Source of the DNA: Candidatus Poribacteria bacterium
Lineage (GTDB): Bacteria > Poribacteria > WGA-4E > WGA-3G
Length of the DNA stretch: 46,200 bases
Assembly: GCA_009839745.1 (NCBI GenBank)
Contig: VXPE01000054.1
Span: 52,075 to 98,274 of the forward strand
Direction: 5' to 3'
Positions 10,786 to 40,940 of the stretch are shown piece by piece (the stretch's first letter is position 1; each line of letters opens with the position of its first letter). Below the pieces are notes generated by a model. It was not told the DNA's origin. It saw only the letters and a program-made list of their open reading frames with translations, and searched no databases. A program made the translations under genes and the position numbers.

Positions 10786-10819
10786 AAAGTGGACAAAGCA
10801 TTAGCAACCTTAAAATTCC

Positions 10820-12326: not shown

Positions 12327-13418
12327 CTAACAATTTAAGTGATAGAATTCCTTCGCATTTTCGGACAAGATTTTGCGTGCCAACGATTGGGGTAACTGTG
12401 TAGGAAATGCCTCTTCGGGAGAGTCGAAATGCCAGTGCGGATAGTCGCTTGAGAACATCAACATGTCCTCGGAATCGAGTTGACCGACGATCTGAAGGAG
12501 TTCCGCCGCGGTTGGCGGGGCATCGATGGGTTGGAGCGTCATGCGCATGTGTTGACGGATATACGCTGAGGGTGGCTGTTTGACCCAAGGGGTCAGATGT
12601 CGTAAGCCGCGCCACTCTTTATCGAACCGCCACATGAGCGACGGCATCCAAGTAACGCCAGTCTCTATGAGCGCAACACGTAAGTCAGGAAACACCTCAA
12701 AGACTCCCTCTGACACGAGACTCAGCACCTGTGCCTGAAATACCTGGGACATACCGACGTATTCCTCCAGATAGGTCGAGGTCCATCCGACGGAGGTCGG
12801 TGGTAGGCCGGGTGCACCACCGTAATGGATGCCGATTGCCAATCCATGACGCACAGCCGCGGCGTAGATCGGATGATAGCGTCTGTTGCCATAAGGGACT
12901 TGCGATCGGGCGGGTAGCATCACTTGGACGAACCTCGGATGTCCTCCCAAACGCTCAATTTCCCTCGCGGCGAGTTCTGGGTTTTGGCTCGGCACAATCA
13001 AGGAACCACGTAAGCGAGGTTCAGGATCCAGATAGTGTTCAATCTGCCAATCGTTGACTGCCGAAGCGAGTGCCGCTGCGAAATCTTCGTTGTGTACGCT
13101 CTGGACCCGATAGCCACAGGTGAGTATGCCGTATTCGACCTCCCAATAATCGAGTGCATGCTTACGCAGGCGTGCTAAATCCGAGGCGGGATGATCTTCC
13201 GAGGGATGTATAATTTCTGGGCGTGATGAAGTCGGGACACCGTCAGGATAGTCGTCTGCATCGGGTCCGGGGAAGCCGGATTCCTCGCAATAGTCGCACC
13301 AATAATCGGATAGGTAGGGATAGAGCATCTGATGTGACGGGAGCCGATTATGGAGGTCGCAGTCGATGATGGACATACCCGCCTGAACAAAACTGGGTTT
13401 ACCGTTCTCTGTTTCCAT
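12327..13418 (-). CDS. Amidohydrolase-family metal-dependent hydrolase (amidohydrolase 2 type)
   Basis: 363 residues, a clear paralogue of the gene at 7567-8664 over its whole length (shared blocks such as ASAVNDWQIE and DYPHW). Metal ligands: D21-x-H23 in IIDCDLHN, a His in GIHYGG, and the Asp of FSSDYPHWHFD. It should be a cytoplasmic TIM-barrel hydrolase or decarboxylase. It has its own near-consensus promoter (13448-13476) and an AAAGGAAA Shine-Dalgarno. The two paralogues have diverged, so the duplication is old; they probably act on related but different substrates. Confidence 0.85.
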   Translation of the reverse strand: METENGKPSFVQAGMSIIDCDLHNRLPSHQMLYPYLSDYWCDYCEESGFPGPDADDYPDGVPTSSRPEIIHPSEDHPASDLARLRKHALDYWEVEYGILTCGYRVQSVHNEDFAAALASAVNDWQIEHYLDPEPRLRGSLIVPSQNPELAAREIERLGGHPRFVQVMLPARSQVPYGNRRYHPIYAAAVRHGLAIGIHYGGAPGLPPTSVGWTSTYLEEYVGMSQVFQAQVLSLVSEGVFEVFPDLRVALIETGVTWMPSLMWRFDKEWRGLRHLTPWVKQPPSAYIRQHMRMTLQPIDAPPTAAELLQIVGQLDSEDMLMFSSDYPHWHFDSPEEAFPTQLPQSLARKILSENAKEFYHLNC

Positions 13419-17623: not shown

Positions 17624-18472
17624 ATGGAATTTGTTCAGTTGACAGAGACACAACGCCAAGAATTCGAGGAGAACGGTTACCTCATCGTGCGTTCAGCAAT
17701 CGACAGTGAAATGATTCAACGCTTAACCGAGACAGGTGACCGGCTCATGGAATCGTTTGAGTACCACGGCTACTACGCACATCGGCGAGACGGGTTGGTG
17801 CAAGAACCCGCATTCGCTGACCTTGCGACACAGTCGAAGGCAGTGCCATTGATCCTGCAACTGCTCGGTACAAATATCCACATCACGAACACCGCACTTA
17901 TCCATAAACACCCACAAGCACCCGAAAAACCTGACAACCGCAATTGGCATCGAGATGTCGGTGTGCATCTGGACGTTGGGCACGCAGGGTGTCCGCGCGT
18001 CGGTTTGAAGGTAGGCTACTGCTTAACGGACTTCAGTGTGCCGAACTCGGGTGCGACGTGGTTTATCCGAAAGAGCCATAAACTGAGTAAACCGTTGGGT
18101 ATCCTCGAGGGTGAAGTTGACCCACCTGTATATGACGAACCGCGCCTCCACGCAGGAGATGCGTTTCTGTTTGAAAGCCGTATCTATCATGCCGCGGGAC
18201 TGAATTTCAGAGAGAATATCTCTAAAGTCGTCATCTACGGGTATCATTATCGCTGGATTAAGCCGGATTACTATCTGCGCTATTACAACGATAGCCTGCA
18301 ACCGGATGAAACATTAACGGAAAACTTAGACGATCTCGGCAGGCAGTTTCTCGGTGCTTCCACGGATACACAGGGCAGGCGCGATCCGAACGGTGTCCAC
18401 TGGGCGGGTTCAGAATGGGCAGCAGCGCATAATCTGAACTTGGAACAAGCCCCGCAGATCACCACGATTTGA
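17624..18472 (+). CDS. Phytanoyl-CoA dioxygenase (PhyH) family oxygenase
   Basis: 282-residue Fe(II)/2-oxoglutarate-type oxygenase, cytoplasmic, a close paralogue of the gene at 6620. Iron ligands H109-x-D111 (NWHRDVG) and the distal His in RIYHAAG. It carries about ten extra residues before the final WAAAHN block where the paralogue has a Gly/Ala run. The start is fixed by the repeat-borne leader directly upstream. The following Gfo/Idh/MocA gene, same strand and 134 bp on, has the same leader, so the two may be expressed together although a repeat lies between them. Substrate unknown. Confidence 0.88.
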   Translation: MEFVQLTETQRQEFEENGYLIVRSAIDSEMIQRLTETGDRLMESFEYHGYYAHRRDGLVQEPAFADLATQSKAVPLILQLLGTNIHITNTALIHKHPQAPEKPDNRNWHRDVGVHLDVGHAGCPRVGLKVGYCLTDFSVPNSGATWFIRKSHKLSKPLGILEGEVDPPVYDEPRLHAGDAFLFESRIYHAAGLNFRENISKVVIYGYHYRWIKPDYYLRYYNDSLQPDETLTENLDDLGRQFLGASTDTQGRRDPNGVHWAGSEWAAAHNLNLEQAPQITTI

Positions 18473-26941: not shown

Positions 26942-29900
26942 CTATTCAGCCAGTTGACGTAAAGTTTCCTCCAAAAGCCGCTGATACCGTCCATATTCTG
27001 TCCAATTACCAGCACGTAGTGCATCCTGGCCTGCATTGAAATAACGGTTCGCCTGTTCAATGAGTCCTGGCAATGAGGTCTGGTCTGTGCTAATATCGGT
27101 TCCCACGTCAATGTCGTCAGTTGTTTCTGTTGCAGCGGTGGTTTGGAACCCTGTTCCCTGTCCGAACATCTTGACGAGTGCCTCCTCAAGAGTTTCACCC
27201 CATACGACTTCGTTCCCGTATCCGATGACGACGCGCCGTAATTCAGGAATAGCGGTTTTTTCATCTTCGGATTGTATATAGATAGGCTCAACATAAAGCA
27301 GAGAGTTATTCATCGGCAGAATCAACAGATTTCCACGTAAGACGCGGGACCCCTGCGTATTCCAGAGGCTAATCTGCTGTGAAATTTCTGGTTCTTGGCT
27401 AATAAAATTCTCCACCTGCATCGGTCCAGCGATCTGTTTCCCTTTCGGGAACCGGTAAACAAGGAGCTGCCCATATTGGGGCAAATCACATCGGGCAGCG
27501 AGCCATGCAGTAAGATTCGGTTTGTTGAGCGGTGTGAACGGCAACATTAACATGAATTCCGATTGCTCCTGCCCCGGCAGTCTGATAACGACATAATAGG
27601 GTTCAACGGGTTGCCCATTTGCCCCGGAACTTTGGGGGACCTGCTGCGGTGCGAAAGGACTCCTCGGTTGCGGAGGCGCGGAAGCCTGTCGCGTTTGGGC
27701 ATCTGTATTGTCATAAAGCTCCCTGCCGATCTCCCATTTATCTTCACCTGCGTAGAAGGTTACGGGATCTTTCATGTGGTAATCCTGATAAACGCGGGCT
27801 TGGATAAGGAACATGGAGGTCGGGTATCGGATATGCGCCTTTAGCTCCTCCGGCATCTCCTCAAACGACTTGAAAAGGTTCGGGAAAATCCGTCGATAAC
27901 ATTCTGCGATTGGATCCTGCTCCCGCTCCATAACGTAAAAATCGACAGTGCCATCGTAAGCATCAACGACGACTTTAACAGAGTTTCGGATGTAGTTCCC
28001 CCACGGTTCAGCGTTTTGCTGTGTATCAGCAATTTGCCGCCTTCTCTCGCTGACGAATTCTCGCATGGAAACGGAATAAGGGTACCGGTGCGTGATCGTA
28101 TAGGCATCAATCATCCAAACCAATCTACCGTTATGGATAATAATGTAAGGGTCTCCGTCGTATCGTAAGAAGGGTGCGATTTTTTGGATCCGGTTTTTGA
28201 TGTTTCGTTCGTAGAGGATCCGACTTGTCGGTGAAATTTCACCGGGTAGCACGAAGTTAATTTCGTTATCGAACTTAAGCATGTATACCATTTTACGCCA
28301 GAAAGAGTTCAGTTGGACCCCGCCCTTTCCTTGATAGGCGTATTCGGCGTATTGTTGACCTTCCTGCGGATAGTCAAACTCAAGTCCTTGACTGCGTTCC
28401 GGATGAACGATGACATAGCGATCCGTGCGTTCACCATAATAGATACGGGGTCCCGGTGTTTCGGTGAACCGATGTTGCCACTGCTCGTCATAGTCAATTG
28501 GTGGCAATCCCTGAATGTACATGTTAGGTTTGCCATTATCAATTTCGTTGACGGGACTCACAACGGCACCGTAGCCGTGCGTGTAGGTATAGGTCTGCTT
28601 ATACCAGTCATTTCTAATTTCGATTGGGAGTTCGTTGATATTGAGTTCCCGTCCAGAGAGCATTACCTGCCGAATCTCACCATCGACGACATAGCGATCG
28701 ATATCGACATCGTTAAAATCATACTGTGTCCGCAATTCTTGGAGTTGTCGGAAAGTTCTGCGCAAGGGTCGCCAATCCCAGAGACGAATGCTATTGAAAA
28801 CAGAAGCGTTTTCGGGACTTCTTATATCATCATAACTGAGTTGCTCTGTCAACGGGTATTCTTCTTCCGTCACAGTATTCTCAGCCAAACCATACGCCTG
28901 TAGCGTTGCTTTGATGTTGTAGTTGATATAGTCCGCCTCTAACACCTGTTTTCTGGGTTCAACCTGCCATCTCTGTATAGCGACCGGATAGACCTGTCCA
29001 AGGAATCCGGCAATCAGAAACACGGCGAATCCACCAAAAGCGAGGGTGTTGCGTTTTAAGAAGATACTAATGATGAAAATGATGGCACACAGGATTGTCA
29101 GTCCAATCAAGAAATATAAAATAGGAAGTCGCGCCTTCATTGCGGCGTATCCACCACCCCCTCGGACGACATCGTTTGTCGTGTAGAGGAGGTCAAACAT
29201 AGCAAACCGGTAGTTCCATGCTCGGAAGAGGAGTGTCAACCCCACAAGCGTGAACAAATGTGCTTTCACATTGAAAGGTGGACGGAACCGAAACTGACTG
29301 GTATCTCCCGTGATTAGCCCGTGAAAAAAGTAGATGACGATCGCAAATATCGTCACCAACATAAAGATACCGAAAAGCGTTCCGCACACATAGCGTTCCG
29401 CCGGCATTCTGAAAACGTAATAGGCGACATCCTTATCAAAGATAGGATCGCGCGCGGGAGATGTCAAGAATGCTTTCTGTCCGGGTTCAATTTGAACAGG
29501 CGTATTCAAACGGATAGCATCATTCAAAATAGCTTCAACCCGTGCGTCCTGATTTGTCCCGTTTACCTGTAAGCTTATCTGATCTCCGACCCTTATATTT
29601 TTCGCTTGGAGTTCGAGTTGCGAGACAGGAATTTCGGCAGAATTGAGACTTTCTTCTACAACAATAGGCGTAGCGGCAGGGAAAGTGAGACTCTCAGCAT
29701 TGGCATAGCGTAGATAGATTTCCCACCGGTCGCTGGCTGCGTAGCCCATCATGATACTAAAAAGGACGGCAAGCAGTGTGAGTGCCCCGTAAATCATTTT
29801 TCGCGTATCACCGGGATTTTCTGCGCCGCCCCCCATGAAATCCGCACCGCCCATAAAAGCCGGACTGAGATGTGCGGGTGTGAACCGATAGATTAAGGCA

Positions 29901-30109
29901 ATGTTGGTTAGCAGGATCGCTAAATAGCAAACGCCAACAATTGCACCGATCCAGATTTTTGTTGTGAGAATTTTAGTGTAAACGCTGAAATAGTTCACTA
30001 CCTCAAACCATAGGAAGTCGGGATAAAGGTTAACCCAGATGGCACCTAATCCGCCAACGACAGCGAGAATAGCGACAGTGATAATAAAGCGTTTGGTTCG
30101 TGAATCCAT
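26942..30109 (-). CDS. UPF0182 family large membrane protein
   Basis: 1055 residues, in the usual range of the UPF0182/COG1615 family, whose function is unknown. The N-terminal ~390 residues hold about seven transmembrane helices (for example FIITVAILAVVGGLGAIWV and LFGIFMLVTIFAIVIYFF). A large region outside the membrane follows, with the family's conserved text around ETPGPRIYYGERTDRYVIV and FAPFLRYDGDPYIIIHNGRL-like blocks. A Pro/Gln-rich linker (about 800-825) and a C-terminal coiled helix (LIEQANRYFNAGQDALRAGN) end the protein. ATG 30109 follows the shared leader (CCGCAAGGAATAATTAAAAA). The downstream TGA-containing gene may be read in the same transcript. Confidence 0.88.
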   Translation of the reverse strand: MDSRTKRFIITVAILAVVGGLGAIWVNLYPDFLWFEVVNYFSVYTKILTTKIWIGAIVGVCYLAILLTNIALIYRFTPAHLSPAFMGGADFMGGGAENPGDTRKMIYGALTLLAVLFSIMMGYAASDRWEIYLRYANAESLTFPAATPIVVEESLNSAEIPVSQLELQAKNIRVGDQISLQVNGTNQDARVEAILNDAIRLNTPVQIEPGQKAFLTSPARDPIFDKDVAYYVFRMPAERYVCGTLFGIFMLVTIFAIVIYFFHGLITGDTSQFRFRPPFNVKAHLFTLVGLTLLFRAWNYRFAMFDLLYTTNDVVRGGGGYAAMKARLPILYFLIGLTILCAIIFIISIFLKRNTLAFGGFAVFLIAGFLGQVYPVAIQRWQVEPRKQVLEADYINYNIKATLQAYGLAENTVTEEEYPLTEQLSYDDIRSPENASVFNSIRLWDWRPLRRTFRQLQELRTQYDFNDVDIDRYVVDGEIRQVMLSGRELNINELPIEIRNDWYKQTYTYTHGYGAVVSPVNEIDNGKPNMYIQGLPPIDYDEQWQHRFTETPGPRIYYGERTDRYVIVHPERSQGLEFDYPQEGQQYAEYAYQGKGGVQLNSFWRKMVYMLKFDNEINFVLPGEISPTSRILYERNIKNRIQKIAPFLRYDGDPYIIIHNGRLVWMIDAYTITHRYPYSVSMREFVSERRRQIADTQQNAEPWGNYIRNSVKVVVDAYDGTVDFYVMEREQDPIAECYRRIFPNLFKSFEEMPEELKAHIRYPTSMFLIQARVYQDYHMKDPVTFYAGEDKWEIGRELYDNTDAQTRQASAPPQPRSPFAPQQVPQSSGANGQPVEPYYVVIRLPGQEQSEFMLMLPFTPLNKPNLTAWLAARCDLPQYGQLLVYRFPKGKQIAGPMQVENFISQEPEISQQISLWNTQGSRVLRGNLLILPMNNSLLYVEPIYIQSEDEKTAIPELRRVVIGYGNEVVWGETLEEALVKMFGQGTGFQTTAATETTDDIDVGTDISTDQTSLPGLIEQANRYFNAGQDALRAGNWTEYGRYQRLLEETLRQLAE

Positions 30110-30342: not shown

Positions 30343-33300
30343 TTAAAAAGCTTGCCCGAGTCCGAGATGGTACTTCATACCGGGTTCAACGCTCGTCAGA
30401 TCCGTATGCCATGCTGCTGCGAAGTCTACTGAAAATACACCGAGTTGCAAACGCAGTCCAGCCCCGATTGAGGCTTTAACGTCCTTAAGGTGAATACGAT
30501 TTTTATCGCGAACAAATATCTGGAAGGGATTCTCCGGTCCATATTGCCAATCCGACCAAGCCCCTCCCAAATCTGCGAAGGCAATTCCGCGTATCCCGCC
30601 AATCGTCCATTGGACGGGCCATCCGAAATGAAGCACATCTATGAACGGAATACGGACCTCGAAGTTAAGGAGTCCGATGCGTGTTCCGACTAACTCCTCA
30701 TAATTATAGCCGCGTAGTGTATCAATCCCACCGAGATAAAAATAGGATCTATCACCCCCGAAACTACCACCGAGCAGTAACCGTGCTGCAAAGGTAGAAC
30801 GTCTGCTGAACCCGAAATAGCGTCGGGCATCAAAAATAACATTTGTGAGTGACAATTCACTACCGAGTGCGGGGAAGGATTGCTCAAGTTCAATACGATA
30901 CCGCGAACCTGTATACGGTGCCCACTCCCGCCACATCGTTGTATCTCCAACAAATGCAACGGACCCCATCGTGAGCAAGCCTCTATCGTCAAATGGATCC
31001 AAAGGTTCGCGCGTTTGGAAGTTGAAAGAGAACGGCTTCGAGTACATTGAGAACGCAAAGTCAAGTCGATGGTATCTGTCAAACGGATAATTGAGGTATG
31101 CGCCGAGTCCAGTAATCCGCTGCAGAATGCCGCGTCTTCTCTGTATACCCCCCAAGATATGGTATTCATGGTAGTTATAAATCATTGCCCCAACATCCGT
31201 TCGGTGTGTCAAAAAACCGTATTGTGCGATAAAATCCGGTGTCAGGTAGCTGGATTGGTTCATGACGCTAAGCCCGATACGATGGTTCCCTAACATGTCG
31301 CTGCCAACGACCTGGACCGTACTTCTCAGGATGCCATCCGCCCCGAAACTGAAATCCGGGAAGATCGCATCTAAAGCAAAAGAGGAGCTTGTGCTATATT
31401 TTCGTCTGGCAATCCTATAATTTTCTGGTTCTTCTTCCGTTAAAATTGCGGAGGGTTCTGCCACGCTCGAAACCTCGATTTTTTCCGCAATCGCTTTGGT
31501 AATCTCCATGATACAGACATCGTATTTTCCATTCTGGTAGGCACTAAACAGCAGATGTTTACCATCGGGAGCCAAACTTGGATTGAAACAACCTGTCATC
31601 ATATTGGTAAGGCGCGTCAACTCAAGTTCCACAGGTCGAGAACCCACAGGTTCTACACTATCGTCTTCAGCAGAGACGACGGAATGGCTATCAGCGGAAT
31701 CGTTATCGGTTTCCATGTTTGCCTCGCTGTGAGCGTTATCAGTTGAGGGATCTTCTGATTTAACCGAACCCTCTTTTAACTGATCACTGTTAACCGATGA
31801 CGGATGACTCATTTCAAGTTTGTGTATATCGTAAATGCCCTGCCGATCTGAACAGAAAAGGATTGATTTTCCATCGGGTGTCCAACTTGGGCTGATGGCG
31901 TTATAGGTGCCATCGGTCAGCAGGCGTTCTGTCCCTTGATTGCGGTTTATCAGCACCAGTCTATTTTTCGCGCCTCGTTCGGAAGTGTAGACGATTTCGC
32001 CAGTTATTGGATGCCACGATGGATGTGTATCGTTAAATGGGTCGAAGGTAAGTCTGTCCACTTCACCCGTCAACAATTCGATTATATAGAGATCCGACTG
32101 CCCCTCTTTTAGGGCAGAAAAGATTATCCGTTCACCGCTGCCATCGTAGTCGGGTGAAATGACGTTATCGAAATCTAACTCGAAGTATTGGGTCAGTTCC
32201 TCAGTCAAAATATTGACTTCAAGGAGGTAATTTGCATCGTGATGTTTGGCGATGAATGCGATCCTGTCGCCATCAGGTGCCCAGGCGAGACTTCTCCCAA
32301 ATCCACCGAAATCGGTTCGGATTTCCTCGTATTTCTCACGGAAAAACCGCTTGGTGACGCGTTCGATGCGCTTACCTGTCTTTGCGGACATCAGGACGAT
32401 TTCCAGAAACCCTTCGTTTCCTGTGACGTAAGCGATAATATCGCCGCTTGGCGACCAGACAGGTTTAATGTTATGGGAGTATCGAGATTCCTCGGTAAGG
32501 TTCTTTGCGACCAGATCGGGCAATTCCCGATCCTCAATGAGGGGCCAGTAGCGTTTGCGGACTGTCTGCCGCCACGCTTTATCAAATTCCTCGAGTTCTA
32601 CGCCGAGTACCTCTTGGAAAACACGGTTGATGTCCTTTGTGCGACTTTGGCGTAACCCCTGCAAAATCTCAGCGATTTTCTCTCGTCCATACGTTTCTGT
32701 GAGATACGCCACCGCTAATTGCCCTAACTTATATCCAATGTAAGGTGAACTGAGTCGGTTGAAATTGTGAAGTTGCGGTAGTGGCACGATATTGTTATTC
32801 ATGCTGGCATCTCGGACGACCATCTCTCCAATCGCATCATTGTCTTCTGCAAAATAGTCCGCCATTCCCTCCATAAACCAAATTGGCGGGGAATACAGGA
32901 ACTCGCCGCTATAGATACGGGCATGTGGTTTCTGGTAGATAATATCGTATTGAAAAATATGAATGAGCTCGTGAAAAATTACCTCTCGAAACGCTTCCAA
33001 GGATCCGGTGAACGGTATAACGATACGGTGTTTAAATAGCTCAGCGAAACCGCCAATCCCTTCGTGCAGTTCCTGGAGAATTATGTTGGTTTCCTGAAAG
33101 TCTTTATGGGATTTGTAAAGGATGAGGGGGGTCCTGCCTTGCAGCTCATGTTCAAAATCTTCGCTGTGCTTTTCGTAAGCTTCTTCGGCAATAGCCGCCA
33201 TAATAGGCACGAGTTTCGCTTCACTTGGATAATAGTGGATGTCGAAATGCTCTGTCCGGTGAATGTGCCAATCGAAACGTTGTCCGGTAATTTTGTTTTT

Positions 33301-33438
33301 CCCAAAACTTTGCGACCACGCAACGCAAGGTGATAACAAGCTCAGAACAACGAGTATCAACAGGGCATGCCTGCCTACCCATCCTTTTTTCCTGCCTTCC
33401 ACTTCTACCGATGCAGTTCTGTTTTTATCGTCCTTCAC
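30343..33438 (-). CDS. Peptidase MA-like / TolB-propeller / BamA-like barrel fusion protein
   Basis: About 1031 residues; GTG 33438 is preferred because AAAAGG then lies at normal spacing (GTG 33447 is also open). Order, numbering from 33447: signal peptide (about 27-46), gluzincin peptidase domain with HELIH at 159-163 and a downstream Glu in WFMEGMADYF, six or so WD40/TolB propeller units (VWSPSGDIIAYV, AWAPDGDRIAF, SWTPDGKSILF), an acidic low-complexity insert (about 546-600), a last propeller unit, then a C-terminal Omp85/BamA-like beta-barrel (LGGIDTLRGYNYEELVG, ending GLGQAF with a terminal Phe). Predicted outer-membrane protein with a periplasmic protease or chaperone part. Confidence 0.82.
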   Translation of the reverse strand: MKDDKNRTASVEVEGRKKGWVGRHALLILVVLSLLSPCVAWSQSFGKNKITGQRFDWHIHRTEHFDIHYYPSEAKLVPIMAAIAEEAYEKHSEDFEHELQGRTPLILYKSHKDFQETNIILQELHEGIGGFAELFKHRIVIPFTGSLEAFREVIFHELIHIFQYDIIYQKPHARIYSGEFLYSPPIWFMEGMADYFAEDNDAIGEMVVRDASMNNNIVPLPQLHNFNRLSSPYIGYKLGQLAVAYLTETYGREKIAEILQGLRQSRTKDINRVFQEVLGVELEEFDKAWRQTVRKRYWPLIEDRELPDLVAKNLTEESRYSHNIKPVWSPSGDIIAYVTGNEGFLEIVLMSAKTGKRIERVTKRFFREKYEEIRTDFGGFGRSLAWAPDGDRIAFIAKHHDANYLLEVNILTEELTQYFELDFDNVISPDYDGSGERIIFSALKEGQSDLYIIELLTGEVDRLTFDPFNDTHPSWHPITGEIVYTSERGAKNRLVLINRNQGTERLLTDGTYNAISPSWTPDGKSILFCSDRQGIYDIHKLEMSHPSSVNSDQLKEGSVKSEDPSTDNAHSEANMETDNDSADSHSVVSAEDDSVEPVGSRPVELELTRLTNMMTGCFNPSLAPDGKHLLFSAYQNGKYDVCIMEITKAIAEKIEVSSVAEPSAILTEEEPENYRIARRKYSTSSSFALDAIFPDFSFGADGILRSTVQVVGSDMLGNHRIGLSVMNQSSYLTPDFIAQYGFLTHRTDVGAMIYNYHEYHILGGIQRRRGILQRITGLGAYLNYPFDRYHRLDFAFSMYSKPFSFNFQTREPLDPFDDRGLLTMGSVAFVGDTTMWREWAPYTGSRYRIELEQSFPALGSELSLTNVIFDARRYFGFSRRSTFAARLLLGGSFGGDRSYFYLGGIDTLRGYNYEELVGTRIGLLNFEVRIPFIDVLHFGWPVQWTIGGIRGIAFADLGGAWSDWQYGPENPFQIFVRDKNRIHLKDVKASIGAGLRLQLGVFSVDFAAAWHTDLTSVEPGMKYHLGLGQAF
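31741..31812. repeat. Family B repeat inside a coding sequence
   Basis: On the coding strand this segment reads tcatccgtcatcggttaaca at one end and ctcaactgataac at the other. It resembles the ends of the intergenic family B copies (gtcgtcagttatcggttatcag; ctgacaactgataac). It is translated as the start of the acidic Ser-rich linker, about residues 546-569 of the fusion protein, without breaking the frame. Confidence 0.55.
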
Positions 33439-33451
33439 ACTATTCACCTTT

Positions 33452-33564
33452 TTTATAGTTATCAGTTGTCAGTACGCTCACTACGTTCGCTTTCAGTTTT
33501 CAGTTAAGAGGTTTTCGTTTAATAAAGGTTTCCGCTTGTAGCTGATAACCGATAACTGACGACT
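33452..33564. repeat. Dispersed repeat, family B
   Basis: Carries agttatcagttgtcagta at the left and ctgataaccgataactgacg then actaatt at the right, with ttcagttttcagtta within. The stop codon (TAG) of the minus-strand lipoprotein at 33563 is formed at its right end. Its left end abuts the start of the fusion-protein gene. Confidence 0.75.
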
Positions 33565-34279
33565 AATTGACTAAATATCTATCTTCGCTCTCATAATGTG
33601 GAGAGATTTGGCGCGTAAATTCTGATACGGCACGTTTACCGAGTTCCCGAATCGTATTCGCTTGCGGTCCAACCTGTGAGAAAATGAACGATCCGATGGT
33701 ATGTGCCTCAGCGGTGCTCCTCCGGTAGGACTCATCCCAGACGACCTGTCCGGTTTCAACATCAACAATCATTACACGGAGTGAGAGTAGATAGGTTTTC
33801 TGCATGTAATCCTGATAATCCAAGACGTAACGTTGGCGTCTCACGGAGTAGCGTTCTCCATAATAACGCCTTGGACGACTATCGGAATAAAATCGGAAAC
33901 TCCCGATGATAACCGCTTTTACCTCAAAGTACTCACCGAGCTGACGCAAGTGTTTCATATCCGTCAGCCAATCTTCTTCAACGGTTTCCCCAGTGAGCAT
34001 TCTCGCCGTTTCTTGTGAGCTGACGACCTCGAAATGTTTTTGGCGTGCTAAACCTCTTCGGAGTATTGAAGCGATCTCCTCACCAACCTCTGGCGGCAGT
34101 TTTTCGTTCCGTTCCACCTGTTTCTCGCTGACAAACGGTAAAACGGCAAAGTTGGAGTAGCGGGTGATGTCGATTTCAGATTGGACCTTGACCGGAATAG
34201 AGACGCGCGTCACAGCACTGCTACATCCGAAAATCGTCAACATACCTAATAGGATCCCTATCCCTTTCGCTATCTGCAT
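33563..34279 (-). CDS. CsgG/LpoB-like envelope lipoprotein
   Basis: 238 residues. Signal peptide with lipobox (TIFGC, Cys about residue 19). The mature part (NFAVLPFVSE, then EIASILRRGLARQKHFEVVSS, KAVIIGSFRFYSD, VMIVDVETGQVVWDESYR) has the alpha/beta pattern of the CsgG/LpoB/DUF799-type lipoproteins. Members act in the periplasm or outer membrane as assembly or regulator partners. It overlaps the upstream TPR lipoprotein by 59 bp, so it is translated from the same mRNA, and it is followed by the outer-membrane fusion gene on the same strand. Together these suggest an envelope-assembly cluster. Confidence 0.75.
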   Translation of the reverse strand: MQIAKGIGILLGMLTIFGCSSAVTRVSIPVKVQSEIDITRYSNFAVLPFVSEKQVERNEKLPPEVGEEIASILRRGLARQKHFEVVSSQETARMLTGETVEEDWLTDMKHLRQLGEYFEVKAVIIGSFRFYSDSRPRRYYGERYSVRRQRYVLDYQDYMQKTYLLSLRVMIVDVETGQVVWDESYRRSTAEAHTIGSFIFSQVGPQANTIRELGKRAVSEFTRQISPHYESEDRYLVN

Positions 34280-34700
34280 CCTGTGTATCCTCGTCCAGTA
34301 GGTGGGGCGGTTCTTCTAACTGGGGTGCATCTTTATCGTCCCCTCCACTTCGCCGGAGGTGTATCCGGCACCGCCGATAGTTGAGTCTGTAGTATTTATT
34401 ATTGGGTTCTAATTCGGCTGCGCGCTCATACGCCGCAATCGCCTCTTCCATATTTCCGAGTGCCTCGTAAGCGACACCGAGGTTATTATGTGCTTTAGAA
34501 TCCCCTGGATCGATACTAATCACCTGCTTCCACCGGAAGACGGCTTCATTCCAGAGCTGCGCTTGCGCTGCCTTGATTGCGAATCGATTGTAAGCTTCGG
34601 TTCGCGTAACATCTCGCGATATTATAGCACATCCGGATAGCATCAAGCAGAGAAGAATAGCGATAGACGCGAGTTGACTGTATCTTAACACGGTTACCAT
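34221..34700 (-). CDS. TPR-containing lipoprotein
   Basis: 159 residues. Signal segment with lipobox LMLSGC (Cys about 24). Residues about 35-115 form two to three tetratricopeptide repeats (AVFRWKQVISIDPGDSKAHNNLGVAYEALG and the next unit, split by register), then an acidic, Arg/Asp-rich tail (DTQDADSERDRD). Probable periplasmic scaffold anchored in a membrane. The 59-bp overlap with the CsgG/LpoB-like gene is long; a GTG/ATG-type coupling is likely. No other function can be seen. Confidence 0.78.
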   Translation of the reverse strand: MVTVLRYSQLASIAILLCLMLSGCAIISRDVTRTEAYNRFAIKAAQAQLWNEAVFRWKQVISIDPGDSKAHNNLGVAYEALGNMEEAIAAYERAAELEPNNKYYRLNYRRCRIHLRRSGGDDKDAPQLEEPPHLLDEDTQDADSERDRDPIRYVDDFRM

Positions 34701-34858: not shown

Positions 34859-35032
34859 ATGAATCGGAACCCATTCTGTTTCTGCCACCCTTCCACCATG
34901 GTAGGTGGATATAGGACTGGGGCTGGGAGATCTGAAATAGATAGTAAAAGTGATCTAAGCGCGAATGTTGCAAAATGGAGTTTTTATGGTACAATCCAGA
35001 CGACTTTTTACTTTGGAGTTAGCATCGTTTGA
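34859..35032 (+). CDS. Possible leader ORF or small protein
   Basis: A 57-residue frame from ATG 34859, preceded by GAGGAG at good spacing and by the promoter at 34803-34831, so it is likely to be translated. It begins MNRNPFCFCHPSTMVGGYRT; no family is recognised. It overlaps the start of the membrane-protein gene at 34986 by 47 bp in a different frame. It may be a leader peptide that couples or limits translation of the downstream gene. It shares a 24-26 bp stretch (gtttctgcc, then cttccacc and tggta) with 36371-36394. Confidence 0.4.
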   Translation: MNRNPFCFCHPSTMVGGYRTGAGRSEIDSKSDLSANVAKWSFYGTIQTTFYFGVSIV

Positions 35033-36323
35033 TCAACTTGTGATAGAGCCCAATTTACTTAAACTCCGCAGTGAATTTGGAATGAGGCAGTATCAACTTT
35101 CAGAGAGCCTGTTGATTCGGAAAAACCAGAGTGCAGTTGGAAGTTGGGTGCTTGCAAATTTTAAAGACAAGAAGATCTATTATATTGACAGAACAAATGA
35201 CCAGGAAGTAGAAGTGTTAGAAGCACGTTGGCAGCCAAGAAATCTGACAAATAATCCCAATGAACAAACTTATGGAACCCATGAAGGTTTTATTGACTGG
35301 CTAAAATTGTGCAGCCTAGCGGAATCTGATCTGGAGTATCTAAAACGCACTGATTTGTCCCCACAACAACTTGACGTTGAAATTGCGCACGCGCCTCTGT
35401 TGGAGGCTTACAAACTATTGCAAGAGATTCTTACATCTCCACGCGAATGGCTTATTGGTTTATCAGAAAACGATGTTCAACAAATTAGGAAATGCTTAGA
35501 GCAGTGGTATATAATAGAAACGAAAATTAATACTATTGAGCAAGATACTGATAGACAGAGCTATATGGATATTTTACAGGAGATTTTTCTATTCTCCAAT
35601 GAAGTTAAGAAATACCTGGGGCAAGTTGCAGTTTATTTACAATCAAAGAAATCGGAACAATTTGAAGCCAAGGTGAATACAACTGTTACTGAAGCTGTGG
35701 AAAACCTTAAGGAGACGACGGATGAATTGCAAAAGCACCGCGAAGAAGCAAAGCAGAATGAAGCCGTGAGGGAAAACGAATTTGCTGAACTGAAAAGCAA
35801 AATGCAGGATGAACTCGCGAAGGAGACAGTTTCAAAACATAAGGCAATCTTTGCCAAACAAGCTGAAGAACATCATAAGGCATCACGGAATTGGCTTTGG
35901 GCAACAAGTGGACTGGTTGTTGCGTTCGGTGCTATTTTCTATTGGTTGTTTTCGGTCTTAAAACTTGATGGAACTGAGTGGATAGGGGTTTTGCAAAATG
36001 TTTTTACGAAAGGATTCTTACTTACCTTAATTTACCTTGTGCTCAATCGTTCCATTAAGAATTATACCGCTCATAAACATTTAGAGGTTGTCAACCAGCA
36101 TCGACAGAACGCTTTGGACACCTTCGATGACTTTGTTGAATCAGCAGGGGAGAACCAAGAAACGCGGGATGCAGTATTATTGGCCGCGACGAATGCAATT
36201 TTTGATGCAAATCAGAGTGGTTATTTACCAACGAAAACAAAGGGAACTGACAACGCCAATCCGATCCAACCAGTAGTTAGAACCTTTCTCTCCGGTTCAT
36301 CATCGACAAAACCTGAAAATTAA
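34986..36323 (+). CDS. Coiled-coil membrane protein next to the type III R-M system
   Basis: 445 residues from ATG 34986 (GGAG five bases upstream); an ATG at 34965 adds seven residues. The N-terminal ~170 residues are soluble, with no family recognised. Residues about 220-310 are a long charged coiled coil (KETTDELQKHREEAKQNEAV). Two transmembrane helices follow (WATSGLVVAFGAIFYWLF and FLLTLIYLVL). The C-terminal helical part has VNQHRQNALDTFDDFVE and RDAVLLAATNAIF, which I have seen as a recurring module in bacterial membrane proteins of unknown role. Upstream of, and co-directional with, the R-M genes; a defence role is possible but not shown. Confidence 0.65.
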   Translation: MVQSRRLFTLELASFDQLVIEPNLLKLRSEFGMRQYQLSESLLIRKNQSAVGSWVLANFKDKKIYYIDRTNDQEVEVLEARWQPRNLTNNPNEQTYGTHEGFIDWLKLCSLAESDLEYLKRTDLSPQQLDVEIAHAPLLEAYKLLQEILTSPREWLIGLSENDVQQIRKCLEQWYIIETKINTIEQDTDRQSYMDILQEIFLFSNEVKKYLGQVAVYLQSKKSEQFEAKVNTTVTEAVENLKETTDELQKHREEAKQNEAVRENEFAELKSKMQDELAKETVSKHKAIFAKQAEEHHKASRNWLWATSGLVVAFGAIFYWLFSVLKLDGTEWIGVLQNVFTKGFLLTLIYLVLNRSIKNYTAHKHLEVVNQHRQNALDTFDDFVESAGENQETRDAVLLAATNAIFDANQSGYLPTKTKGTDNANPIQPVVRTFLSGSSSTKPEN

Positions 36324-36641: not shown

Positions 36642-38327
36642 ATGCCAACACTCAATTTCAAAGGAAAACACCACATCTACGCCCACCATCTCTCTGTCCC
36701 GTACCATCCCCTTGAACCTGACGAAAGCCGATCCTGCAACCCATCCGGCGAAGAAGATAACCTCATCATTCACGGCGATAATCTGAATGCGCTTAAAGCG
36801 TTGCTCCCTCGCTACGCGAACCGCGTCAAGTGCATCTACATAGACCCACCCTACAACACCGGTAATAAGGATTGGATCTACAGAGACGACGTAAATAATC
36901 CACCTATGCAGGAATGGTTCAAGGAACACAGTCCCGTTGACAACGAAGATATGGAGCGGCATGACAAATGGCTTTGCATGATGTGGCCCCGGTTGCATCT
37001 ACTCAAAGCATTGCTTGCGCCCGATGGGGTCATCTTCGTTTCTATTGATGATAATGAACAACATCGTTTACGGATGCTAATGGATGAAATTTTTGGGTTA
37101 GAGAACTCCATCGCACAAATAGTGGTCCAGACAAATCCACGTGGTCGTTCTTTGCAGCGACATGTAGCACAAACTCATGAATATGTTCTGATGTATGCCA
37201 AGGATATAAAAACGGTAAAAGTTTATAAAATCCCGAAAACAGAAAAATCTCTTTCAGAATATAATAAACAAGACAAAGGCGGATCCTATCGTCTCTTACG
37301 TTTACGGAATACTGGAGTCCAGTTTTTCAATCGAGAAACTCGCCCGAACCTATTCTTTCCGATCTATGTAAATCCAAAGACCGGAGATACATCTCTTATT
37401 CCCAACCTAAATTTCCCTATTGAAGTTTTACCGACAACTGACGACGGTGTAGAAGGGTGCTGGACATGGGGCAAAGATAAAATCAACAAAAATCCCGGAC
37501 TAATTGTAGGCCAAAAAGTCCGTGGCGGTAAATGGAGGATTTACCGTAAGGATTACTTGAAAGACGAAAGTTTGCTGACCCTGCCTAAGTCAATGTTGAC
37601 TGGCACAGAAGTCAATCATGAGGTTGGTAAAGAGATGCTAACAAAATTATTTTCCGCTGCACCTTTTGAATATCCTAAATCAACAGAACTGATAGCAAGT
37701 TTAGTGAGGATTGCTTGTAAGAGCGATGGGATCATCCTTGACTCTTTCGCTGGTAGTGGAACGACCGCTCACGCAGTTTTAGCACTCAACAAAGAGGATA
37801 GAGGTAATAGAAAATTTATCCTCGTCGAATGCGAAGAGTATGCAGACACCATCACTGCTGAGCGCGTTCGACGCGTCATAAACGGCGTTGAGAACGCTAA
37901 AGATACAACGTTGAAGGAAGGTCTCGGAGGTTCTTTCACTTACTGCACTCTGGGCAAACCTATTGAAATAGAAGCGATGCTCACAGGAGAATCTCTGCCC
38001 TCGTATTCAGTCCTCGCTGCCCACTTGTTGTTTGCTGCTGCCGGTGTTTCTATAGGAGATGAGAAATTGGAGAAGAAAAACGACGACGGGCTTTTTTACT
38101 CCGATGACAAAAACGATTACTACCTGCACTACCAATCCGATCTTGATTACTTGAGCAGCGACGAGGCATTACTAAAGCAGGAGCACGCCGAACGCATCCG
38201 AGACACCAGTCGTCAGAATGGTAAAAAAGCGATCGTCTATGCAGCAGGCAATTACATCGGGCAGCGTGAACTCACAAAAATGGGAATCACATTTTGTCAA
38301 CTCCCTTATGTCCTGCATGAAAGGTAA
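36642..38327 (+). CDS. Type III R-M modification methyltransferase (Mod)
   Basis: 561 residues, beta-class N6-adenine (or N4-cytosine) DNA methyltransferase. DPPYNTGN (68-75, motif IV) comes before the SAM-binding LDSFAGSGTT (about 365-374, motif I), the circular permutation typical of Mod. VIFVSIDDNEQHRL and KFILVECEEYADTITAERVRRV are also family features. The central ~250-340 stretch is probably the target recognition domain, which sets the sequence. It methylates one strand of an asymmetric site and is also needed for cutting by Res. GAGGAG precedes the ATG. The Res gene follows after 12 bp, so they form an operon. Confidence 0.92.
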   Translation: MPTLNFKGKHHIYAHHLSVPYHPLEPDESRSCNPSGEEDNLIIHGDNLNALKALLPRYANRVKCIYIDPPYNTGNKDWIYRDDVNNPPMQEWFKEHSPVDNEDMERHDKWLCMMWPRLHLLKALLAPDGVIFVSIDDNEQHRLRMLMDEIFGLENSIAQIVVQTNPRGRSLQRHVAQTHEYVLMYAKDIKTVKVYKIPKTEKSLSEYNKQDKGGSYRLLRLRNTGVQFFNRETRPNLFFPIYVNPKTGDTSLIPNLNFPIEVLPTTDDGVEGCWTWGKDKINKNPGLIVGQKVRGGKWRIYRKDYLKDESLLTLPKSMLTGTEVNHEVGKEMLTKLFSAAPFEYPKSTELIASLVRIACKSDGIILDSFAGSGTTAHAVLALNKEDRGNRKFILVECEEYADTITAERVRRVINGVENAKDTTLKEGLGGSFTYCTLGKPIEIEAMLTGESLPSYSVLAAHLLFAAAGVSIGDEKLEKKNDDGLFYSDDKNDYYLHYQSDLDYLSSDEALLKQEHAERIRDTSRQNGKKAIVYAAGNYIGQRELTKMGITFCQLPYVLHER

Positions 38328-38339
38328 AGAGGTGGAATT

Positions 38340-40940
38340 ATGATGGAATTAAAAGTATATCAACAGAACGCACTGGACGCTTTTAGCCATTGGCTAGAGG
38401 CACTTGAGGAGACGCAGAACACCTCGAAAACCGCTATAGAGGCATTGAAACAAGCAGGGGTTGATAGCATTCCCGCCGAGTTGCAAAATTATCCCCAAAA
38501 TGCATGGCAGAATTTGAAACAGAACGACAGCGTTGCCCCAACTGCTGGCGAATACGTTACGCGCACCGATGACGCAAAACGTCCCATCCCACACGTCTGT
38601 TTTAAAGTGCCAACGGGTGGCGGGAAAACCTTGCTCGCAGCGGCCGCTTTGGAACGTCTCCATCGGCAGCGCGGGCTAACACTATGGATTGTGCCGACTA
38701 AGGCGATCTACGCACAAACGAAAACAGCCTTATGGAACAAGGAACACCCGTATCGTAAAATGTTGGAGCGGGCAAGTGCCGGTAGCGTCAAAATGCTTGA
38801 AAAGGATGACCCTTTCAATAGGGACGATATTGCTAATTACCTATGTGTTATGCTCCTTATGTTACCCGCGGCGAATCGACAGAAAGGTAGGGAGTTTCTC
38901 CGGATGTTCAAAGATACCGGGAAGTATCCGAGTTTTTTCCCTGACAGTGACGACATCTTCGGCGACGCTCGTATGCGAAATGAATATCCCGATCTGGAGT
39001 GTAAAAGCGAAAGGGAAGGTGGAGTCGTCAAGCAGAGTCTGTTTAACGTGTTTAAAATGCTCCGTCCTGTTATTGTTTTAGACGAAGCACATAAAGCATA
39101 CGGCGCGAGCAGACAGAAAGCAAACGAAGAATTTGCCCGCTCCATCAACCGCCTTGATCCTCGAATGATAATAGAGCTTTCCGCGACCCCTAACCGCGGC
39201 ATCAGCAATTTACTCGTTGATATTGACGGAACCGCCTTAAAAAAAGAAGAGATGATTAAGTTGCCTGTCCAAGTGAAATCCAATTCCAGGAAAAACGCAG
39301 AAACGACTTCTTGGAGAGACGATTGGCAATACACTTTACAGCAAGCAGTGGATGAACTCCAGCGACTCAATGATGCGGCAGAAGCCCTTGAAAACACCAC
39401 TAACCGATATATCCGACCGATCGCTGTCGTTCGCGTCGAGCGGACAGGCAAGGATCAGAGAGATGGCGAGCGTATCCATGCTGAGGATGTGCGCGAATAT
39501 CTCACGCGTTTAGGTGTGTCACCGGAAGCAATTCGCGTCAAATCCTCCGAAAACGATGAACTCCAAAACGAGGACTTGCTTTCTGAAATGTCGCAGGTTC
39601 GCTGGATCATCACAAAATCCGCACTCATGGAAGGGTGGGATTGTCCGTTCGCTTACTTGTTAGTAATGTTAGACAATACACAAGCACAAAAAGCAATCAC
39701 ACAACTTGTAGGACGTGTGATGCGGCAACCGCATGCACAACTTACAGGACAAAAAGCATTAGATCAGTGTTATGTCTATTGCAACAACACCGACGTGGGC
39801 ATCGCCGTCGAGCAGGTCAAAAACGGGTTAGAATCCGAAGGTCTCACCGGTTTAGGAGATGAGGTCGTTGGTGCTGCAGGCATACAGGAAATCGAGGATT
39901 TTCGCACACAAATCGTGAAGCGCCGAGCGCAATTTCAAGATCAGGCGATCTATTTGCCGGTGGTCCTCCATAGGGATGGAGACGCGTGGATTCAACTCAA
40001 TTATCAATCACATATTCTACCACACATAAAGTGGTCAGCGATTCAAGCTCCCACCCCAAATGCTTCTGCATCCGATAGTATGATATGGCAATCTGCAACC
40101 GTTGACGTTGGCGAGGCACCGCCTGTTTACCACCCTGATCAAGAACCCTATGTTGACAAAACAGTTGACATCTCCGATTTTGCGCGGCGTCTGTCAGACC
40201 TTTTGCCGAATCCGTGGCGAGCCGCTTGCATTGCATCGCAGATGCGCGAAAGTCTCAGACAAAGCGGCAAAACTGAAGAAGATATTTACGATAGACGTTC
40301 TTATCTCGTGCATGCGTTGCGGGAGCATGTAAAGCATGAAATCGAACAGCAGGCGGAGTGGGTATTTCGTAGAAAGTTGGATCATGGTGAAATCCGTTTT
40401 GACTTAGAGACAGAGGAACCTAATTACAAACTCCGATATCAGTATGAAATAGAGGTTAGAGCGAATGATAGACCACTCACAAGGTATGGTAGTCCTGTTC
40501 AACTCAGCCTCTTTGAACCCATATTTGAACAACATTTTGATAGCGAGTTTGAAAAGAAATTTGCGTATTATCTTGATGAACGTCGCGCCCTACAATGGTG
40601 GCATCGAATCGCTGTGCGTCAACGCGGAGAGTATTACGTGCAAGGTTGGAAACAGGGACGTATTTACCCAGATTTTGTTGCGATGACCCGCGAAATTGCA
40701 GGTGTAACGCGCGTATTGATTTTCGAGACAAAAGGAGAACACCTTGGAGGCAACCTCGATACTGAATATAAGAAAAAGGTCTTGAAAACTCTTGAAGATA
40801 CATTCAACAACGGCGGCACGATGATGGTCCGCGAAGGAACAACACGGGCAGGTATCTTTCAACTCGTATTCAGCGAGCAGGAGTTTCCAGAAATCACTGC
40901 GCGTCTGGGGGAGCATAACTTGACGGAGGCGGATAACTAA
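38340..40940 (+). CDS. Type III R-M restriction subunit (Res), helicase-nuclease
   Basis: 866 residues, the usual Res size. Superfamily 2 helicase motifs in order: PTGGGKT (91-97, Walker A), LDEAHKAYG (about 248, motif II), ELSATPNRG (motif III), and GWDCPFAYLLVMLDNTQAQ with QLVGRVMRQP (motifs V-VI). The C-terminal PD-(D/E)xK nuclease is YPDFVAMTR with FETKGEH (about 776-797). It translocates along DNA after Mod finds its site, and cuts when two sites meet head to head. Two ATGs (38340 and 38343) follow AAGAGGTGGAATT. It is intact; its stop TAA is formed by the left end of the inserted element that follows. Confidence 0.92.
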   Translation: MMELKVYQQNALDAFSHWLEALEETQNTSKTAIEALKQAGVDSIPAELQNYPQNAWQNLKQNDSVAPTAGEYVTRTDDAKRPIPHVCFKVPTGGGKTLLAAAALERLHRQRGLTLWIVPTKAIYAQTKTALWNKEHPYRKMLERASAGSVKMLEKDDPFNRDDIANYLCVMLLMLPAANRQKGREFLRMFKDTGKYPSFFPDSDDIFGDARMRNEYPDLECKSEREGGVVKQSLFNVFKMLRPVIVLDEAHKAYGASRQKANEEFARSINRLDPRMIIELSATPNRGISNLLVDIDGTALKKEEMIKLPVQVKSNSRKNAETTSWRDDWQYTLQQAVDELQRLNDAAEALENTTNRYIRPIAVVRVERTGKDQRDGERIHAEDVREYLTRLGVSPEAIRVKSSENDELQNEDLLSEMSQVRWIITKSALMEGWDCPFAYLLVMLDNTQAQKAITQLVGRVMRQPHAQLTGQKALDQCYVYCNNTDVGIAVEQVKNGLESEGLTGLGDEVVGAAGIQEIEDFRTQIVKRRAQFQDQAIYLPVVLHRDGDAWIQLNYQSHILPHIKWSAIQAPTPNASASDSMIWQSATVDVGEAPPVYHPDQEPYVDKTVDISDFARRLSDLLPNPWRAACIASQMRESLRQSGKTEEDIYDRRSYLVHALREHVKHEIEQQAEWVFRRKLDHGEIRFDLETEEPNYKLRYQYEIEVRANDRPLTRYGSPVQLSLFEPIFEQHFDSEFEKKFAYYLDERRALQWWHRIAVRQRGEYYVQGWKQGRIYPDFVAMTREIAGVTRVLIFETKGEHLGGNLDTEYKKKVLKTLEDTFNNGGTMMVREGTTRAGIFQLVFSEQEFPEITARLGEHNLTEADN

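Follow-up and report, generated by a model that had tools for sequence, protein, structure and literature searches.

Within the window, by which we mean the whole 46,200-nucleotide stretch of a Candidatus Poribacteria contig that was analysed, one gene encodes a peptidase domain, a TolB-like propeller and an Omp85 barrel in a single chain, and on this Pfam, AlphaFold2 and structure comparison are concordant. In Poribacteria the gene belongs to a conserved four-gene block, new here, made up of a TPR lipoprotein, a CsgG-like lipoprotein, the peptidase-propeller-barrel protein and a UPF0182 membrane protein. We suggest that the product is most likely an outer-membrane factor for assembly or quality control that faces the periplasm and places the protease logic of BepA on an Omp85 scaffold. 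The fuller version of this reading, an outer-membrane-anchored zinc peptidase of the WD40-Omp85 kind with a BepA-like role and a non-proteolytic function of the block besides, is one we hold tentatively.

Three domains in one chain

The features of the gene are as follows.

30343..33447, minus: whole gene of the peptidase-propeller-barrel protein (open reading frame, Pfam, sequence reading, AlphaFold2)
33310..33438, minus: N-terminal extension and signal-like sequence, hydrophobic LLILVVLSLLSP and then WSQ (sequence reading)
33292..33306, minus: FGKNK motif after the signal-like sequence, residues 48-52 (alignment column counts)
32509..33267, minus: predicted MA-type peptidase domain, residues 61-313 (Pfam, AlphaFold2, domain folded alone)
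32959..32973, minus: HELIH zinc motif, residues 159-163 (alignments, motif counts)
32866..32880, minus: WFMEG, residues 190-194, with the presumed third ligand Glu193 (alignments, motif counts)
31477..32508, minus: TolB-like beta-propeller, residues 314-657 (PD40, TolB matches, AlphaFold2)
31642..31797, minus: disordered acidic insert within the propeller, residues 551-602, pLDDT below 50 (alignment, AlphaFold2)
30346..31377, minus: predicted 16-stranded Omp85 barrel without POTRA, residues 691-1034 (Pfam, AlphaFold2, structure comparison)
30706..30717, minus: LRGY in the position of the Omp85 loop-6 motif, residues 911-914 (alignment columns)

Counted from its first GTG, the open reading frame has 1034 codons. 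The next in-frame GTG, at 33438, is the likelier start, since it is preceded by an AAGG at a distance of about 8 bases, with which the first GTG itself overlaps. AlphaFold2 modelled the whole protein with a pLDDT of 82.1 and a pTM of 0.81, placing the peptidase at about residues 61-313, the propeller at about 325-657 and, between 691 and 1030, the barrel, whose 16 strands were counted from those listed for the model. The Peptidase_MA_2, PD40 and Omp85 profiles all exceeded their Pfam cut-offs. FGKNK is nearly invariant (F48, G49 and N51 each in 64/65 alignment rows, K52 in 65/65), a count biased by the use of FGKNK as one of two scan patterns to collect relatives.

The initial annotation had described a HELIH peptidase motif with a downstream Glu, and both were borne out: the Glu is E193, giving the HExxH plus Glu of clan MA, and Peptidase_MA_2 (PF13485) matched residues 89-296 at E 1.1e-10 (42.1 bits against a cut-off of 32.4). 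Outside the Poribacteria block clade, 42 of 45 relatives matched the same profile at E 0.001 or better. Whole-chain structure comparison gave no peptidase in its 50 rows, and the domain was therefore folded and searched separately. Folded alone, it matched a Vibrio-type collagenase (Z 17.1, 237 aligned, 3.7 A), the M30 peptidase lugdulysin (Z 16.5) and M1 aminopeptidases (up to Z 13.6), so the predicted fold is that of a gluzincin. Conservation of the ligands, which the annotation had proposed as a check, was seen as well, with HExxH present in 74 of the 78 readable Poribacteria block copies. Raw ligand counts from the genome scan are biased, as the HExxH stretch was itself one of the two scan motifs; the bias-free subset comprises the 33 loci that matched the FGKNK pattern only, and among the matches listed all 33 carry HExxH. 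When six intact block copies were compared with the window, identity was 53-67% in the peptidase, 38-52% in the propeller and 39-58% in the barrel. The peptidase is thus the best-kept domain, which fits selection on catalysis, and from these sequence patterns we infer that it is enzymatically active.

The propeller units were correctly recognised as TolB-like: PD40 matched three stretches at E 4.2e-24, residues 386-547 matched PDB TolB chains by sequence at E 5.8e-18, and the structure matched TolB (Z 26.8, 248 aligned, 2.5 A). We take this propeller to be of TolB's type, not BamB's. Within its acidic insert, at columns 561-600 of a 36-row alignment, a gap is the most frequent letter.

The BamA-like barrel ending in Phe also held up. 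The Omp85 profile covers residues 841-1034 at E 1.1e-12 (it reached E 0.001 in just 23 of 45 relatives), the barrel of Deinococcus BamA was matched in structure (Z 24.6, 307 aligned, 4.1 A), and the last residue is Phe, as in 57 of the 65 rows of that column. Being C-terminal, 16-stranded in the model and matched by the profile, the predicted barrel is of the Omp85 superfamily. LRGY occupies what we take to be the position of the loop-6 motif (V/I)RG(F/Y), whose invariant Arg is presumably an Omp85 hallmark; here the R is found in 65/65 rows and the G in 64/65, and Asp959 is likewise invariant (65/65). Pfam found no POTRA in the window protein at E 1, and in the AlphaFold2 model the propeller runs directly into the barrel. 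Omp85 proteins as described in PMC11116518 have at least one POTRA, whereas PMC4104836 has POTRA-less subfamilies, so that POTRA is not required there.

The gene block and its distribution

The peptidase-propeller-barrel gene was matched at E 1e-30 or better in 81 of 84 Poribacteria genomes, which rejects chance or misassembly as its origin. All 55 good genomes gave a match, and the three genomes without one are 78, 88 and 79% complete. Its partners in the window are three.

34221..34700, minus: short TPR lipoprotein gene, upstream (open reading frame, Pfam, loci, alignments)
33563..34279, minus: CsgG-like lipoprotein gene, upstream (Pfam, loci, profile search, alignments)
26942..30109, minus: UPF0182 (PF03699) membrane protein gene, downstream (Pfam, loci, alignments)

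The two lipoprotein genes overlap by 59 bases in the window. The order TPR, CsgG-like, peptidase-propeller-barrel was seen in 73 of the 81 block copies, with median gaps of 3 and 59 bases; seven of the remaining eight copies sit at contig ends, and both lipoprotein genes lie upstream in 73 of the 74 copies not cut by one. The UPF0182 gene comes next downstream, 10-1154 bases away, in 76 of the 81. The device had been called self-contained, a description that these constant neighbours do not support.

That two lipoproteins lie directly upstream was correct, and the Cys at the lipobox position is invariant in both (73/73 CsgG-like and 73/73 TPR proteins), even if a lipobox regular expression, which was too strict, matched 23/73 and 62/73, respectively. 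The CsgG/LpoB-like label given to one of them is weak, because the CsgG profile scored 20.1 bits against a Pfam cut-off of 20.8 and a profile of the protein found no relative, and hence no solved one, in the PDB at E 1; four of 20 members matched CsgG at E 0.1. DUF6340 was considered as a fused CsgG-TPR homologue and rejected as weak and a lead only (11/20 members at E 0.1, best 5.8e-4; on the TPR side E 0.025). We take the TPR protein to be far shorter than BamD.

Many phyla carry relatives, at least 543 of which came from the two-motif scan of named genomes. The three-domain order also stood when searched for: among the best 80 of the 543, the three parts lie in the same order in one open reading frame in 74, and the other six run off a contig end. 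Co-occurrence with the lipoproteins, in contrast, is a feature of Poribacteria, and outside the phylum the two genes are mostly not adjacent. In the 65 of 67 non-Poribacteria loci that were readable, 13 of them with less than 1.5 kb upstream, there was no UPF0182 homologue, one weak CsgG-like match (L138, E 1.1e-4, on the opposite strand at a distance of about 5 kb), and a TPR gene directly upstream in the sister loci L109 and L110 only. On which side L109 and L110 fall depends on the root, since both trees place the two between the block clade and all other rows. The absence of the block outside Poribacteria counts against the BepA-like reading.

Equally new is one Poribacteria family, f5, that keeps the block in the absence of the catalytic motif. 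HExxH is missing from the block copy in 4/4 readable genomes, three of which have, in addition, a separate copy that is intact. Loss of the motif with retention of the block suggests that the block has a role independent of the catalytic site, and does not support processing of the protein's own substrate, as first proposed, as the essential job. In one of the four motif-less block copies (L039), peptidase and propeller tie as best-kept domain, at 28% each. A single recent duplication giving rise to the f5 copies was rejected (AU p 0.00016 for a single clade of the five f5 rows, and 0.00007 for one of the 11 Poribacteria rows together) in a test on 29 rows under LG+G4, with a quick tree and long f5 branches.

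Possible roles at the outer membrane

The BepA-like reading can be set out as follows. The C-terminal 16-stranded barrel would be seated in the outer membrane, with the propeller and the gluzincin-type peptidase hanging beneath it; that these soluble parts are periplasmic is suggested by Omp85 topology and by PlpD as described in PMC11116518. The barrel would be the chain's anchor and might also provide an Omp85 seam, the propeller may dock or gate envelope proteins, and the peptidase would clip or remove clients that fail to mature, much in the manner of E. coli BepA at the BAM complex. In Poribacteria it would work, putatively in a physical complex, with the TPR lipoprotein, the CsgG-like lipoprotein and the UPF0182 membrane protein encoded alongside. 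A non-proteolytic docking or assembly role of the block would then have outlasted the peptidase motif where one lineage lost it. Without POTRA, the protein has no known surface for client handover, which counts against this reading, as do the TolB-type propeller and the shortness of the TPR protein. It does not substitute for BamA, since the genome encodes a separate BamA-like protein with five POTRA stretches; the window protein is thus an extra protein, and there are five further Omp85 matches in the genome besides these two.

A somewhat doubtful alternative is a second BAM-like machine, in which the one chain, the two lipoproteins and an inner-membrane UPF0182 arm would insert or destroy outer-membrane clients, the functions having been split in f5. 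Under such a scheme assembly and proteolysis would be separable, as f5 has both a motif-less block copy and a free one that is intact and descends separately.

Rather unlikely, in our view, is a protease dedicated to maturing exported or surface proteins, in which the barrel would serve as translocator or exit gate (TpsB/FhaC-like) while the peptidase processes a passenger. The export reading of the initial annotation points this way, as do the translocators among Omp85 relatives (PMC4104836) and 32 Por_Secre_tail matches, which make it probable that many tail-sorted proteins are exported. However, no passenger-like gene is among the conserved neighbours, f5 retains the block after losing HExxH, and three C25 peptidase matches in the genome could serve sorting. 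These leave no obvious gap for a sorting protease, and we rejected the idea that the window protein is the one a type IX-like system would lack. SprA_N was matched at E 0.001 in 39 of 40 relatives (18/40 over the cut-off; the window's own genome not).

We also think it improbable that this is a plain periplasmic housekeeping peptidase whose barrel is an anchor only, with no insertase or translocase role. The peptidase is indeed the best-kept domain of intact block copies, and a Salinibacter protein has peptidase and propeller with no barrel, but the invariance of the loop-6 Arg and Asp959 goes beyond the needs of a mere anchor, and in f5 the block outlives the peptidase motif.

There is little to recommend a surface peptidase for nutrition or host contact, its soluble domains brought to the cell surface by the barrel (the type Vd idea). 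The closest folds of the peptidase domain, collagenases and lugdulysin, are secreted enzymes, yet presence in every good Poribacteria genome and in many phyla is unlike a niche surface enzyme. PlpD, once read as a translocated enzyme (PMC4104836), is now reported to confine its domain to the periplasm (PMC11116518). Least credible is a generally inactive, peptide-binding peptidase domain, as the loss in f5 would suggest, given that HExxH is intact in all the other readable block copies and in the 33 listed relatives not selected by it.

Comparison with known systems

BepA is not fused to a barrel, belongs to another peptidase family (M48) and has a TPR part in the same chain. The likeness to the window protein as we read it is that BepA is a zinc peptidase of the periplasm, acting in the assembly and quality control of outer-membrane proteins; it promotes as well as degrades LptD, probably on BAM (PMC8423444). 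Like the window protein, PlpD joins an enzyme domain to an Omp85 barrel, but that domain is patatin-like and is accompanied by POTRA, and no propeller is described for it in PMC11116518. In Salinibacter ruber, the plasmid pSR116 protein WP_118831798.1 ('basic secretory protein-like protein') has the FGKNK start, peptidase and propeller in common with the window protein (30% identity over 532 columns) but, at 633 residues, no barrel. The enzyme part can thus exist without an anchor, which counts against the BepA-like reading.

By architecture, the closest likeness is to WD40-Omp85, in which a TolB-like propeller precedes the Omp85 barrel, one of the non-POTRA architectures of Heinz and Lithgow 2014 (PMC4104836), who likened it to a BamA-BamB fusion. 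WD40-like Omp85 were still named in 2024 among highly conserved subfamilies that are not well characterised (PMC11116518). The main text of PMC4104836 contains no word starting with 'peptidase', while its supplementary tables may list N-terminal domains; set against that main-text description, the N-terminal MA-clan peptidase domain is a new addition to the subfamily. The WD40-Omp85 subfamily thereby acquires a peptidase domain whose ligands are conserved and, in one phylum, conserved partner genes, and f5 offers a natural separation of function, the catalytic motif gone and the gene block retained. Both bear on the question of whether a triage protease can be built into an Omp85 protein itself.

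The 'Metallo' Omp85 class (Omp85-metalloproteases) was tied to PF00149 (PMC4104836). The window protein falls outside it, carrying PF13485 and having no PF00149 match in Pfam at E 1. PF00149, named Metallophos in Pfam, is a phosphoesterase model, not a peptidase model. This suggests that the Omp85 'metalloprotease' label rests on a metallophosphoesterase model, and that a peptidase-type Omp85 fusion is widespread.

Anatomy and predicted fold

The gene is an open reading frame of 1034 codons counted from its first GTG. The initial annotation began it at the next in-frame GTG, 33438, where the AAGG spacing is better; residues are numbered here from 33447.

30343-33447, (-): three-domain protein
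Residues 89-296, (-): Peptidase_MA_2 (Pfam, above cut-off)
Within the same protein, (-): PD40 repeats (Pfam, above cut-off)
Residues 841-1034, (-): Omp85 (Pfam, above cut-off)

Pfam, AlphaFold2 and structure comparison agree with the initial annotation that protease, propeller and barrel lie in one polypeptide. Sequence searches pair PDB TolB chains with residues 386-547 (E 5.8e-18) and, weakly, a Fusobacterium BamA chain with residues 866-1034 (E 0.028). The NCBIfam matches to TolB, Omp85 and flagellinolysin each fall below cut-off. The whole-chain AlphaFold2 model (pLDDT 82.1, pTM 0.81; 65-sequence alignment as input) places the peptidase first, then the propeller, then 16 long strands spanning residues 691 to 1030; no POTRA separates propeller from barrel. 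An acidic stretch of 52 residues (551-602) is disordered in the model, and a gap is the commonest letter at residues 561-600 of a 36-row alignment. In VIA-align 2 comparisons the model scored Z 26.8 with TolB and 24.6 with BamA. The barrel proposed from sequence is also predicted.

Modelled alone (pLDDT 82.7), the peptidase domain has as its nearest structure a collagenase from Grimontia (Vibrio), with Z 17.1 over 237 aligned residues at 3.7 Å, followed by the M30 lugdulysin (Z 16.5), with M1 aminopeptidases lower (up to 13.6); structures of these same kinds also head the Foldseek ranking. The putative domain is modelled in the gluzincin arrangement typical of clan MA, though sharing a fold is no sign of activity. 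Two other Peptidase_MA_2 proteins are encoded in the same genome, at loci L046 (G000:C36:124238-124942) and L060; one is a 334-residue stand-alone protein, with a Metallophos match just after it, and the other has 385 residues with TPR repeats in front.

The protein extends WD40-Omp85, a group that is known yet unstudied and that Heinz and Lithgow defined and likened to a BamA-BamB fusion (PMC4104836). Words beginning "peptidase" and the name Poribacteria are absent from the main text of that article. Its "Metallo" Omp85 group rests on PF00149, and because PF00149 is named Metallophos in the Pfam copy used, the "metalloprotease" label of that subfamily in section 10 looks mistaken. A 2024 paper still places Omp85 proteins of the WD40-like type with the poorly characterised ones (PMC11116518). 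In the open-licence literature, mostly titles and abstract starts, we found no paper on the three-domain protein, and none there on Poribacteria together with Omp85.

Distribution and the four-gene block

The three-domain protein is real and conserved. Among Poribacteria, 81 of 84 genomes have a match at E 1e-30 or better, including 55 of 55 good genomes and 20 of 21 genera; the three genomes lacking one are 78, 88 and 79% complete. A scan of named genomes' contigs with two patterns, an HExxH stretch and FGKNK, gave at least 543 relatives among at least 588 pattern matches. Record titles among the best 80 of these relatives include Poribacteria, KSB1, LCP-89, Calditrichota, Bacteroidetes, Ignavibacteria, Chlorobiota, Kapaibacterium, Eisenbacteria, Krumholzibacteriota, Neomarinimicrobiota, Chitinivibrionales, Cloacimonadota, WOR-3, Gemmatimonadota, Latescibacterota, Acidobacteria and Rhodothermaceae. 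The same three-domain order, which the initial annotation had proposed searching for, runs as a single frame from peptidase into barrel in 74 of those best 80, the other six being open at a contig end. Pfam, applied to 45 of the 80 at E 0.001, matched PD40 in 45, Peptidase_MA_2 in 42 and Omp85 in 23; where Omp85 was unmatched, the barrel was detected by a Poribacteria-family profile. A Salinibacter ruber plasmid protein, publicly annotated as "basic secretory protein-like protein", shares the peptidase and propeller but lacks the barrel.

Three genes accompany the three-domain gene in Poribacteria.

Upstream, same strand: TPR protein, 159 residues; invariant Cys ending the hydrophobic start (73/73 aligned)
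Upstream, same strand: CsgG-like protein, 238 residues; invariant Cys ending the hydrophobic start (73/73 aligned)
Downstream: UPF0182 protein; six hydrophobic stretches in a simple hydropathy scan

The order TPR, CsgG-like, three-domain gene was seen in 73 of 81 block copies, the copies assigned to this four-gene block, one per genome. Co-occurrence with the two lipoprotein genes is conserved. Seven of the eight copies without the full order lie at contig ends (genomes G007, G022, G042, G043, G047, G055, G073); G030, whose locus is uncut, has its CsgG-like gene on a separate contig. In 76 of 81 copies UPF0182 follows as the next block gene (gaps of 10-1154 bases); the other five comprise three contig ends (G002, G043, G048), G057, with UPF0182 about 1.65 kb away and beyond the piece analysed, and G038, with it on a different contig. 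Median gaps along the block are 3, 59 and 110 bases. The CsgG-like protein is present in 78 of 84 Poribacteria genomes and UPF0182 in all 84, most of which have a further UPF0182 match at another site. Across 91 sequences (the window, 10 loci from relatives and its own genome, and 80 scan loci), the most shared neighbour clusters were the three block partners (19, 19 and 17 loci), the next reaching 10. Outside Poribacteria, 65 of 67 loci were readable, 13 with less than 1.5 kb upstream. UPF0182 homologues were absent from those 65, and the single CsgG-like match was weak (L138, about 5 kb off on the other strand, E 1.1e-4). TPR homologues occurred in four; only two were strong and directly upstream (E about 1e-51), in L109 and L110, sister loci titled Gemmatimonadetes and Latescibacterota respectively, and those in L073 and L096 were weak. 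With two lipoprotein genes and UPF0182 conserved beside the gene in Poribacteria, the description "self-contained" needs amending.

Elsewhere in the window, two proteins have a Por_Secre_tail domain (type IX sorting) at their end, at 2369-2584 and 20362-20622 (-). In the whole genome there are 32 Por_Secre_tail and three C25 peptidase matches and a frame of roughly 2270 residues with an SprA_N match below cut-off, which suggests that Poribacteria have a divergent secretion system of type IX-like character. A DNA methylase (N6_N4_Mtase, Pfam) followed by an 866-residue helicase-like frame (36642-40940) resembles a restriction-modification pair of type III, with a coiled-coil, membrane-like frame ahead of it (34965-36323); judging from translations, three frames at 8801-11866 look like another restriction-modification cluster. 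Translations also suggest two pairs of similar genes, phytanoyl-CoA dioxygenase-like (6557-7438 and 17624-18472) and amidohydrolase-like (7567-8664 and 12327-13418).

The catalytic site and its loss in one family

Ligands were counted in 81 Poribacteria genomes, with a single block copy per genome; in three the motif could not be read (G022 and G047, contig ends; G075, split). HExxH is kept in 74 of 78 readable copies. Because the HExxH stretch was itself a scan pattern, the 33 loci matching FGKNK alone among the best 80 of at least 543 relatives were counted separately, and all 33 have HExxH. A text pattern for the downstream Glu went unmatched in three of them, all rows of an alignment (mixing loci from either pattern) that has Glu at column 193 in each of its 65 rows. 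The peptidase ligands are accordingly conserved in homologues, the block copies of one Poribacteria family, f5, excepted.

The four copies without HExxH are the four readable f5 block copies (L039, L151, L153, L157), reading YFAAR, HGVTH, HAAVH and RSVAR; three are full-length and the one in G048 is cut by the contig start. The family also carries a free copy, apart from the block, with HELVH in all four genomes where it was found (G038, G046, G047, G048). Of the four genomes whose readable block copy lacks the motif, G038, G046 and G048 have this free copy, and none was seen at E 1e-30 in G044 (64% complete). Motif-less copies group with Poribacteria block copies in two trees (SH-aLRT 97 and 93); free copies fall among other phyla. 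A single clade of all five f5 rows was rejected (AU p 0.00016), in a tree with long f5 branches. When block copies are compared with the window, the peptidase is clearly better conserved than the other two domains in six intact copies, a lead that it no longer has in the four motif-less copies (peptidase 24-28%, propeller 23-31%, barrel 16-27%).

The f5 block copies lost the motif yet kept their lipoprotein neighbours, and therefore the block has a job independent of the HExxH catalytic site, which is retained in the rest of the readable block copies of Poribacteria. The proposal that the protein may process its own substrate must be amended, since the f5 block persists after motif loss.

A candidate role at the outer membrane

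The mechanism first proposed is a plausible candidate. With an Omp85-type topology, in which the barrel is C-terminal and its strands are even in number, the N-terminal domains would lie in the periplasm; the domain of PlpD, a tested enzyme-Omp85 fusion, is reported to stay there (PMC11116518). Sequence, conservation and gene order are observed and the fold is predicted, while location, activity, clients and complex are inferred. The best reading is that the protein is most likely a triage factor at the outer membrane. The propeller would dock or gate clients, the barrel would serve as anchor and may take part through its seam, and the peptidase would remove failed clients. A precedent in function is BepA, which either helps LptD to mature or degrades it, probably on BAM (PMC8423444); the two roles have a parallel in f5, where the catalytic motif was lost and the block retained.
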